Origin: Frankia sp. R82
GTDB lineage: Bacteria; Actinomycetota; Actinomycetes; Frankiales; Frankiaceae
Length of the DNA: 64,000 nucleotides
NCBI RefSeq assembly: GCF_023716925.1
Contig: NZ_JAMQQG010000044.1
Coordinates: 1-64,000 of the forward strand
Reading direction: 5' to 3'
Under the pieces are notes generated by a model. It did not search any database. It saw only the letters and a program-made list of their open reading frames with translations, and had not been told where the DNA came from. A program made the position numbers and the translations under genes. Below, piece after piece: positions 32,769-37,247 of the stretch (position 1 is its first letter; each line of letters opens with the position of its first letter).

Positions 32769-32814
32769 GGCCGAGGGTCGGTGAAGGATGCGAATCCTCG
32801 ACCAACCCTCGGCC
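32769..32814. terminator. Bidirectional hairpin between convergent genes
   Basis: 10-bp stem GGCCGAGGGT/ACCCTCGGCC enclosing an inner GGAT/ATCC hairpin. Serves the proline-rich protein gene (+) and the MFS gene (-). Confidence 0.8.
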
Positions 32815-34504: not shown

Positions 34505-35128
34505 TCAGTCGGCGGTGGCTGGAGGCTCGTCCACGGCGTCGTCGGAGGTGGAACCAGGCGACCCGGGGTCGGGGGAGAGGAAGGTCGGGGAACAGATGAT
34601 CTGCGCCCATCGGTCGTCGATGGCGGGCAGGTCCATCGCGACACTCACGTTGATCAGCATCCCGTGCGCGAAGAACACCCGGATCTCGTCCTCGGGCAGG
34701 CCGGTGACCCGTTCCACCGTCTCCCACAGGCGGCGGAACCCGGTGCGGGTGGCGACCCGCACGTCCGGGTCGTAGCAGCCGGCGTAGGCGTGCAGCTGGG
34801 TGAGCAGGTAGGTACGGTCGGCGAGCAGCTCGGAGTACGACTCCTTCATCGCATCCATCGCGGCCTCACCGGTCAGCTCGCCCGCGGCCTGCTCGAACAG
34901 CGCGGCGGTGCGGGCAAAGGTGCTCTCGACGACGGCGATGAACAGGGCCTTCTTCGTCGGGAACAGGCGGAACAGGTACGGCTGCGAGATGCCCGCCCGC
35001 GTGGCGATCACCTCGGTGGACGTGCCGGTCAGCCCGCCCTCGGCGAACTCCTCGACCGCTGCCGCGAGCACACTCGCCCGCCGCTGCTCGGCGCTCATCC
35101 GCGCCCCGCCGTCCGTCCGTGTTGCCAT
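34505..35128 (-). CDS. TetR-family transcriptional repressor
   Basis: 207 residues with a canonical N-terminal TetR helix-turn-helix: RRASVLAAAVEEFAEGGL, TSTEVIATRAGISQPYLFRLF and PTKKALFIAVVE. The C-terminal domain binds an unknown ligand. ATG 35128 is chosen because TACCTT lies 7 nt upstream (leaderless). Likely represses itself and the MFS pump 170 nt downstream through matching operators. Confidence 0.93.
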   Translation of the reverse strand: MATRTDGGARMSAEQRRASVLAAAVEEFAEGGLTGTSTEVIATRAGISQPYLFRLFPTKKALFIAVVESTFARTAALFEQAAGELTGEAAMDAMKESYSELLADRTYLLTQLHAYAGCYDPDVRVATRTGFRRLWETVERVTGLPEDEIRVFFAHGMLINVSVAMDLPAIDDRWAQIICSPTFLSPDPGSPGSTSDDAVDEPPATAD

Positions 35129-35135
35129 GCCTCGT

Positions 35136-35155
35136 AAGGTAGTGGCCACTCACTA
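35136..35155 (-). promoter_or_regulatory. tetR promoter-operator
   Basis: Minus-strand TACCTT -10 (complement of 35136-35141) overlaps the palindrome AGTGGCCACT (35141-35150) within TAGTG...CACTA (35140-35155). Same sequence logic as the MFS operator. Confidence 0.7.
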
Positions 35156-35159
35156 GCCA

Positions 35160-35909
35160 TGTCAACGTCGGGACCCGGAAGACTTTCGGCCGCATCCCTG
35201 GTAGCGATCATGGTGTTCCGCGAACCGGGCCACCAGACGCGGGGTCGGTGGCCTCTTCCTGCCTGCGTTCCGTGCGCAGGCCGTGGCCAGGGCGTGGCCA
35301 GGGCGAGCCTCGCCCGGCCCGATCACGCCTCCACGTGGGCCGCCATCCAGACGGTCGCGACCCGCCATCAGCGCCGAGGCGCCGCACACCTGAATCCGCT
35401 GCTCCAACGAACGCCTGGACCGTGCCGGCCGTGCCGGCCGCGGCATCCTCTCACGCGTGCGCTCAGCATCTCCTGAGGGTCTGTCCGTGCTTCCGGCCTG
35501 CGTCCCGCGTACGTGGGCCGTTGCGATCCCACGATCCGCGGGTCCGGTCCGACCGGTGGTCCTGGCTCGTCGAGATGTAGGCGTGCCATCACGTGCCGCG
35601 CAGATATGTCGGAGAGTGACTGCCCTGGGTGCCGGCGGACGTCCCGCCAGCACACCCTCGCACCCATCCGCCCCAACCCCCGTCGGCCGATACTCTCTGT
35701 GCCAGCTATGTCACTCCATATGACAAAAATGGCTCGTCGTGGGCACCCGAAAGGCAAGATCCATTCTTGCCGAGGCTTAGTGAAGGATCGGCAGGCCGGA
35801 ATCTTCACTCCGCCTCGGCAAGAATCCGTGACTTTGCGGAATGGTCGCCGTCCAAGGCGGGGGCGGGGGTGGTGGGGCGGTGGGGCGGTGGCCGTTTGTG
35901 CAGGCCGGA
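35160..35909. other. 750-bp gap without a recognisable gene
   Basis: Open frames exist on both strands but their translations are Arg/Pro-rich and match nothing I know. The right third (35690-35830) is noticeably more A+T-rich than its surroundings and carries an inverted repeat TGTCA/TGACA (35709-35725) and a long hairpin. Could be a decayed mobile element or an unrecognised RNA. Confidence 0.5.
35753..35825. repeat. Long inverted repeat with alternative pairing
   Basis: Outer arms of 14 bp are perfect: ATTCTTGCCGAGGC (35763-35776) with GCCTCGGCAAGAAT (35812-35825). After a 2-nt mismatch, AGTGAAG (35779-35785) pairs with CTTCACT (35803-35809). GGCAAG at 35753-35758 can instead pair with CTTGCC at 35766-35771, so two mutually exclusive folds exist. 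Confidence 0.8.
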
Positions 35910-37247
35910 TCAGAAGGTCGAGGTTTCGGCGTGGATGTGGTGGCGGTCCAGGCCGGCGGCGCGTAGCGAGCGGACGGTGGTGGCAACCATGCCGGGGGGT
36001 CCGCAGACGTAGGCGTCGTGGTCGGCGAGCTGGGGGACGAGGGTGGTCAGACGATGACAGGAGAGGGGATCGTCCTGGTCTCCGCCGTCGCCGGTGGGGG
36101 CCGGGCCGGTCAGGTAGTGCACGGTGGCATCCAGGTCACCGGCGAGGTCGTCCAGTTCGGTGCGAAAGACGATCTGGTCGGCGCGTTCCGTGCGGTAGAG
36201 CAGGGTGACGGCGAGGTCGTCGTCGACGTCCTCGAACAGGGCGCGCAGCGGCGCGATGCCCATGCCACCCGCGACGAGCAGTACCGGCCGGCGTTCGCGG
36301 GCCTGTGCGGTGAGGGCGCCGTAGGGGCCGGAGACCAGCAGCCACCGGCCGGGGGTCAGCCCGGCCATCGCGTCGCTGTAGTCACCGACGGCCTTGACGG
36401 TGAACCGCAGTTCGTCCGGCCGTGGCGCCGCGGACAGCGAGAACGGGTGGGAGTGCCACCACATCGGCCAGTCCAGTGCCCGTAGCCGGAAGTACTGCCC
36501 GGGGCGGGCACCCACCGCGTCCAGGGCCTGCCCGGAGACGATGATCGACACAATCCCGGGAGCCTCCGCCTCGACCGCGGCGACGGTGAACTGGTGGCGC
36601 AGCGTCAACCGCACCGGGGCGAGGATCCGGTACCAGCCGAGCGTGCCCAGCGCGGCCAGGTGCAACCCCGTCCACAGCACCCGGACCGGGCTGGACAGCA
36701 GGTCCGGGCCGTACAGCTGATGGGCGAAACTGATCGCGATTCCGGGGTAGACGACCAGGTGCAGTAGATGCCACCAGCCATACGACATCGTCCGGCGCAG
36801 CGCCGGCACCGAACTGACCGTCGCGACCAGCAGCAGCACCAGGCCGATCACCGCCAGCCACACGTACGGAAGGTCGACGACGACGCCGATGAGCCCCGAG
36901 GCGAACGGCGTCCCCACGGCCGCCGCGTTCGAGGCTACCGCCAGCACCGCGTGCGCGGCGGTCACCGCCAGGAACGACAGCCCGCAACCCACATGGATCA
37001 GCCGCGCCGGCCGCATCGCCACGGTGTGCTCGAACCAGGGGATCCGCGCGGCCAGCAGCACCTGGACGACGCCCAGGTACCCCGCGGCCAGCCCGCACAG
37101 CCGCGCCGCGGCCCCCGACCCGCCACCCGGGCCGGACGGTGGCCGCTGCAGCACCCGGTAGGCCCACCATCCGGCGACGACCAGTGCGCCCCCGGTGACC
37201 ATCCCCACCACGACCGTGGACGGACGTAGCGCCCGAACGGTCGACAT
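35910..37247 (-). CDS. Ferric-reductase-like membrane flavocytochrome
   Basis: 445 residues. The N-terminal half is a ferric-reductase/NOX-like haem b membrane domain with about six TM helices and candidate haem histidines in ARLIHVGCGLSF, AAHAVLAV and WWHLLHLVVYPGIAISFAHQ. The C-terminal half is an FNR domain: FAD motif RPGQYFRLR, NAD(P)H motif GGMGIAPLRALFED and terminal VCGPPGM. It moves electrons from NAD(P)H across the membrane to an unknown acceptor. ATG 37247 lies 6 nt after a TAGTTT -10 box (leaderless). The adjacent fad genes belong to a separate unit. Confidence 0.9.
   Translation of the reverse strand: MSTVRALRPSTVVVGMVTGGALVVAGWWAYRVLQRPPSGPGGGSGAAARLCGLAAGYLGVVQVLLAARIPWFEHTVAMRPARLIHVGCGLSFLAVTAAHAVLAVASNAAAVGTPFASGLIGVVVDLPYVWLAVIGLVLLLVATVSSVPALRRTMSYGWWHLLHLVVYPGIAISFAHQLYGPDLLSSPVRVLWTGLHLAALGTLGWYRILAPVRLTLRHQFTVAAVEAEAPGIVSIIVSGQALDAVGARPGQYFRLRALDWPMWWHSHPFSLSAAPRPDELRFTVKAVGDYSDAMAGLTPGRWLLVSGPYGALTAQARERRPVLLVAGGMGIAPLRALFEDVDDDLAVTLLYRTERADQIVFRTELDDLAGDLDATVHYLTGPAPTGDGGDQDDPLSCHRLTTLVPQLADHDAYVCGPPGMVATTVRSLRAAGLDRHHIHAETSTF

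Follow-up and report, generated by a model that had tools for sequence, protein, structure and literature searches.

What kind of object is the long inverted repeat that lies between the genes of a TetR-family regulator and a flavocytochrome in Frankia sp. R82? The locus was analysed within a stretch of 64,000 nucleotides (the window; contig NZ_JAMQQG010000044.1 of assembly GCF_023716925.1). In line with the original prediction, positions 35160-35909 form a gap without any predicted gene. The gap, its neighbours and the parts of the repeat are as follows.

34505-35149, minus strand: gene of a TetR-family regulator, one neighbour of the gap
35753-35758, plus strand: GGCAAG, the proposed alternative pairing partner; private to this copy, most others having GCCATG
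35763-35785, plus strand: left arm of the hairpin, with the constant base TGCCGAGG
35786-35802, plus strand: region of the inner stem and loop
35803-35825, plus strand: right arm of the hairpin, with the constant base CCTCGGCA
35910-37247, minus strand: flavocytochrome or ferric-reductase-like gene, the stop of which is 85 nt from the hairpin

The two arms (23 nt each) are 91% complementary and fold into a hairpin of 63 nt, which consists of a perfect outer stem of 14 bp and an inner stem of 7-8 bp, with a 2x2 internal loop between them. The minimum free energy of the structure is -39.8 kcal/mol, a value that none of 200 shuffled sequences reached (z = -7.05). The 63-bp inverted repeat with 14-bp outer arms is therefore present where it had been predicted. 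The richness in A+T that had been attributed to the locus applies to about 150 bp only (G+C of 0.55 at about 35700-35849 versus about 0.70), and not to the remaining gap, where the G+C content is 0.69-0.75.

The structure had been proposed to be bistable, the left arm pairing alternatively with GGCAAG, and such a pair of exclusive folds could constitute a cis-acting terminator/antiterminator switch. Both pairings are indeed possible in the window copy, as GGCAAG and the left arm can form a 7-bp hairpin of -11.1 kcal/mol. However, forcing this pairing costs 6.6 kcal/mol overall, the partner is found in only one of the 21 long copies described below, no other copy conserves the pair formed by 35753-35758 and the left arm, and none of the 4227 models of Rfam matches the element. 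Since GGCAAG is private to the window copy and the alternative fold is the weaker one, the switch is not a conserved mechanism and we have discarded it as extremely improbable.

A search of the own genome (an assembly of 6.9 Mb in 370 contigs, 95% complete), which had been suggested together with the prediction, revealed that the hairpin is not single-copy. The sequence that surrounds it was recovered at 20 further places, and about 20 additional places hold only the hairpin. The conserved unit extends leftward to 35477, well beyond the structure noticed earlier, and the hairpin forms the 3'-proximal core of an element of about 390 bp, to which we refer as family 1.

35477 to about 35870, plus strand: dispersed family-1 element, non-coding, about 390 bp; present 21 times in the genome, with pairwise identities of 73-95%
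35477-35493, plus strand: sharply defined 5' end, GGGTCTGTCCGTGC-like, retained in 17-19 of the 21 copies
35826-35850, plus strand: conserved 3' block TCCGTGACTTNGCGNAATGGTCGCCG, mean pairwise identity 88%
35866-35891, plus strand: tandem tail of 8-nt units, (GGGGCGGT)3.2

The long copies finish after the conserved block, near 35850-35870, and 20 of the 21 are followed by a tandem array on the 3' side. The units of these arrays are usually 8 nt long, and both their sequence and their length are specific to the copy; on the 5' side an array was found in merely four copies. Family 1 is non-coding, as no frame is open across all full-length copies and the lengths vary modulo 3. Internal deletions occur in four copies (L004, L010, L011 and L033) and transitions predominate among the differences between copies. 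The mean identity is 94% for the hairpin arms and 80% for the remainder, where the higher value could reflect a constraint on the moving source and not on each individual copy. Two observations concern the surroundings of the copies. The 5' flank of the element in L002 contains a run of 68 C, possibly an assembly artefact, and a separate repeat, which reaches about 185 bp at most, adjoins several copies (L006 at 1701-1885, L009 at 1049-1232, L012, L025 and L034), the instances in L006 and L009 being 84% identical.

The proteins of this strain are 86-87% identical to those of Candidatus Frankia nodulisporulans. A comparison with 12 other Frankia species did not recover the full element; one short match of 31 bases was all that appeared. 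At the window site, the two sequence blocks that are common to the relative G007 lie 736 bp apart here and 19 bp apart in G007, and other relatives have unrelated sequence. At six further sites for which both flanks could be identified in relatives the element was missing in every case, with spans, for instance, of 134 or 34 bp in the relatives versus 563 bp in the own genome, and of 348 versus 925 bp. In the gap of one of these sites, L015, the relative G006 carries a hairpin of its own type. The own genome has thus gained copies relative to its relatives. Considering that the 12 other species gave no full element and that none of the comparable syntenic sites holds one, the element was probably mobile.

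The suggestion that the structure is the remnant of a miniature transposon is upheld in part by these results, namely by the 21 long copies and by their absence from the syntenic sites of relatives. The customary marks of such an element were not detected and the hairpin is internal. More specifically, the longest words common to both flanks measured on average 6.7 nt versus 6.3 nt in mismatched controls, which gives no indication of target-site duplications, and a comparison by eye yielded no clear inverted partner of the GGGTCTGTCCGTGC 5' end at the tandem 3' end.

Several candidates for the mobilising activity were considered and rejected. An autonomous partner that shares the 5' end was sought, and the exact and one-mismatch matches to this end coincide with the known copies. 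A recurrent transposase beside the copies was not apparent either, the clusters of similar ORFs being small or made up of frames of the element itself. The collections of phage, plasmid and viral sequences contain no match to the element, and an origin from a phage or plasmid was dropped on that ground. A link with reverse transcriptase was abandoned as well, considering that the genome has four hits, none of them on a contig that carries a copy; the one enzyme that was examined is of the group II intron type. Reverse transcriptase genes are located on contigs C28 (with a group II intron maturase domain), C338 and C347, where the matches on C347 cover the two halves of the domain separately. 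Finally, the element could be a REP (repetitive extragenic palindrome) mobilised by a RAYT, a tyrosine transposase of the Y1 type. The intergenic position of the palindrome, its bias towards convergent and unidirectional gaps and the existence of species-specific families are as in REPs (PMC3733652). Yet the own assembly (95% complete) shows no match to the Y1 transposase domain PF01797, the hairpin measures 53-63 nt and not 20-40, and its ends, aligned over 30 and over 60 copies, carry neither a GTAG nor a CGTC tag. A RAYT-driven REP is thereby largely refuted and we deem it very unlikely.

The distribution of the hairpin is wider than that of family 1. About 16 further copies in the own genome are embedded in different flanks that are similar to one another, and constitute a second family. 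In all, the own genome has about 43 hairpin places. A covariance model (R1), built from 30 hairpins, identified related hairpins in several other species of the genus. These have the stem base TGCCGAGG...CCTCGGCA in common, whereas the inner stems are lineage-specific: GCACGGTTTT...AAAACCGTGC is found in G001, G002, G005, G009 and G011, and a GTTGTTCGG-like stem in G006. With few exceptions, 53 nt separate the outer T from the outer A. The exact outer-stem pattern occurs at 38 places in the own genome, at 30 in G002, 22 in G006, 18 in G005 and 14 in G011, versus none in these same five genomes for the reversed pattern. Four Frankia species lack it, and genomes outside the genus contain it once at most. 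The exact hairpin pattern, which holds the inner stem of the own lineage only, had no match in 84,980 other species. The window contains a second and shorter member.

32770-32813, strand not assigned: related hairpin (GCCGAGGGTCGGTGAAGGAT...ATCCTCGACCAACCCTCGGC) with the same stem base, located between convergent genes about 10 bp past a stop codon; about four CCTGATG units follow, up to 32842

Some additional observations were made on the hairpins of the genus. Directly 5' of most hairpins in G002 (L120-L159) and G005 (L160-L179) there are 1-3 GGCCAGA-like units, possibly the counterpart of the 3' tandem tails of the own genome. A second dispersed palindrome, GTGGAGGGTTGTTCGG...CCGAACAACCCTCCAC, is present in intergenic regions of the own genome (L022, L027, L031, L033, L036 and L008) and resembles the hairpin type of G006. 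In addition, corresponding gaps of distant Frankia seem to hold hairpins of different lineages (L008/L156 and L020/L146/L172), the neighbouring ORFs being about 43-80% identical.

The combination of an array on the 3' side and a hairpin that recurs in unrelated flanks could be taken to indicate a bacterial counterpart of the SINEs. The element would then be a structured non-coding transcript with a defined 5' end, the 3' hairpin of which a trans-acting reverse transcriptase, such as a group II intron protein, would recognise, and insertions at the 3' ends of genes would later have been kept as functional RNA ends. Such a mechanism would account for unrelated families that have only the hairpin in common, for the 8-nt tandem tails and for the lack of target duplications. 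We consider it quite improbable.

The hairpin is conserved after insertion, as became clear from eight sites in G002 and G005 that are orthologous according to their flanking genes. The outer arms are 96%/90% identical between these pairs, figures that are biased upward because anchors of 7 nt had to be present for the arms to be located; the distant flanks are 71%/67% and the inner arms 71%/79% identical. At six of the inner pairs both sides have changed and pairing is retained, where 0.9 such cases were expected and none of 5000 shuffles gave as many; in certain orthologous copies, up to 6 of the 14 inner pairs have been lost. Among 15 hairpins of other species, which represent the best-scoring matches, covariation exceeded that of all 500 shuffles, and among 39 hairpins with the exact outer stem and a spacing of 53 nt the inner pairing amounted to 0.740 versus 0.713, a value that only the highest of 2000 shuffles equalled. 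Among the hairpins of the own genome half of the pairs are invariant, which makes the covariation within this set weak. The compensatory changes for which the relatives were to be inspected according to the original prediction are therefore present.

Paired changes are also produced by symmetric protein sites, and the palindrome could act as double-stranded DNA that is bound by a Frankia-specific protein, at copies spread over the chromosome, in chromosome organisation, regulation or replication. The invariant and symmetric base and the conserved flanks, such as GGCCAGAT, would fit this idea, as would the about equal frequencies of A.C and G.T in G002 and G005. It is harder to reconcile with inner arms that vary and nevertheless pair beyond expectation, for which a protein site has no need, and with the uneven positions of the copies in G002; on balance such a binding site seems unlikely. 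We had considered the asymmetry between G.T and A.C as proof of an RNA. It favours one strand in family 1 and the opposite one in G002 and G005, and because of this reversal no consistent RNA strand emerges and the argument was dropped.

The position of the hairpins relative to genes points to the 3' ends of the latter. Considering the four genomic sets, none of the copies lies within a predicted gene, and where neighbours were called on both sides 34 hairpins are located between convergent genes, 40 between tandem genes and 4 between divergent genes. A similar bias towards convergent and unidirectional gaps has been described for REPs (PMC3733652). The nearest stop lies at a median distance of about 117-134 nt in G002 and G005; for family 1 this median is about 287 nt.

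It had been suggested that the structure serves as the terminator of the flavocytochrome gene. An ordinary intrinsic terminator that happens to be common to several genes would agree with the strong stem that starts 85 nt past the stop, with the placement at gene 3' ends in all four sets and with the related short hairpin behind another stop in the window. On the other hand, no T-run follows the hairpin and a terminator scan did not call it, the conserved unit of 390 bp is far larger than a terminator, the stem base is invariant in sequence across species, the same site in relatives with the same genes lacks the element, and the median distance of family 1 is long for a terminator. The distance to the stop thus leaves this function conceivable, but as a full explanation of the structure an ordinary terminator is not likely.

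We conclude that the hairpin is one copy of a dispersed bacterial repeat and not a one-off switch. The reading that we favour, and hold to be fairly probable, is that of a palindromic repeat akin to REP and ERIC elements, non-coding, non-autonomous and about 390 bp long, which was mobilised in trans, and the hairpin core of which belongs to a Frankia-wide family and was retained as a 3'-end structure. In such a scheme a trans-acting enzyme would recognise the stem base (TGCCGAGG/CCTCGGCA) and spread the elements that bear it, which would explain why the hairpin is common to unrelated flanks. Insertions that landed between the 3' ends of genes would have been tolerated and subsequently kept, because the hairpin, whichever strand is transcribed, could serve as a structure at the RNA 3' end, be it as a stop of transcription or as protection of the mRNA 3' end. 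For the window copy, the target would be the flavocytochrome transcript.

With these hairpins Frankia gains a genus-wide family of palindromic repeats, of which a full-text search of the literature yielded no description in this genus. The fixed length of the hairpin, its constant base, the lineage-specific inner stems and the conservation after insertion suggest that mobile repeats have been taken over as functional 3' ends. They also raise the question what moves palindromic repeats where a Y1 transposase is lacking.

Among the known systems, the REPs are GTAG- or CGTC-tagged palindromes of 20-40 bp that are intergenic and form species-specific families, one class of which has no dedicated transposase (PMC3733652). 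The Frankia hairpin is likewise palindromic and intergenic, with the same placement bias and species-specific families, but differs in its length (53-63 bp), in the lack of the tags and of a Y1 transposase in the genome, in being embedded in longer elements and in combining a constant stem base with a variable inner stem. The ERIC, RU-1, RU-2 and RU-3 repeats of enterobacteria are mobile, MITE-like repeats of 103-168 bp that are present in many intergenic regions (PMC2759123). Compared by description rather than by sequence, they resemble the Frankia element as small mobile intergenic repeats, whereas the latter is about 390 bp long, ends in a tandem tail and has a hairpin that is common to unrelated flanks. 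MITEs in general are similarly short, non-coding, multi-copy and missing at the syntenic sites of relatives; in the Frankia element, however, no terminal inverted repeats, target-site duplications or partner transposase were found, and the palindrome is internal. The SINE and CR1-type retroposons of eukaryotes start at a defined 5' end, terminate in short tandem units and have a 3' hairpin that is common to unrelated elements. The Frankia element has a defined 5' end as well, arrays that are mainly on the 3' side (20/21 versus 4/21 on the 5' side) and a hairpin that recurs in unrelated flanks, but it is bacterial and has no reverse transcriptase linked to it.
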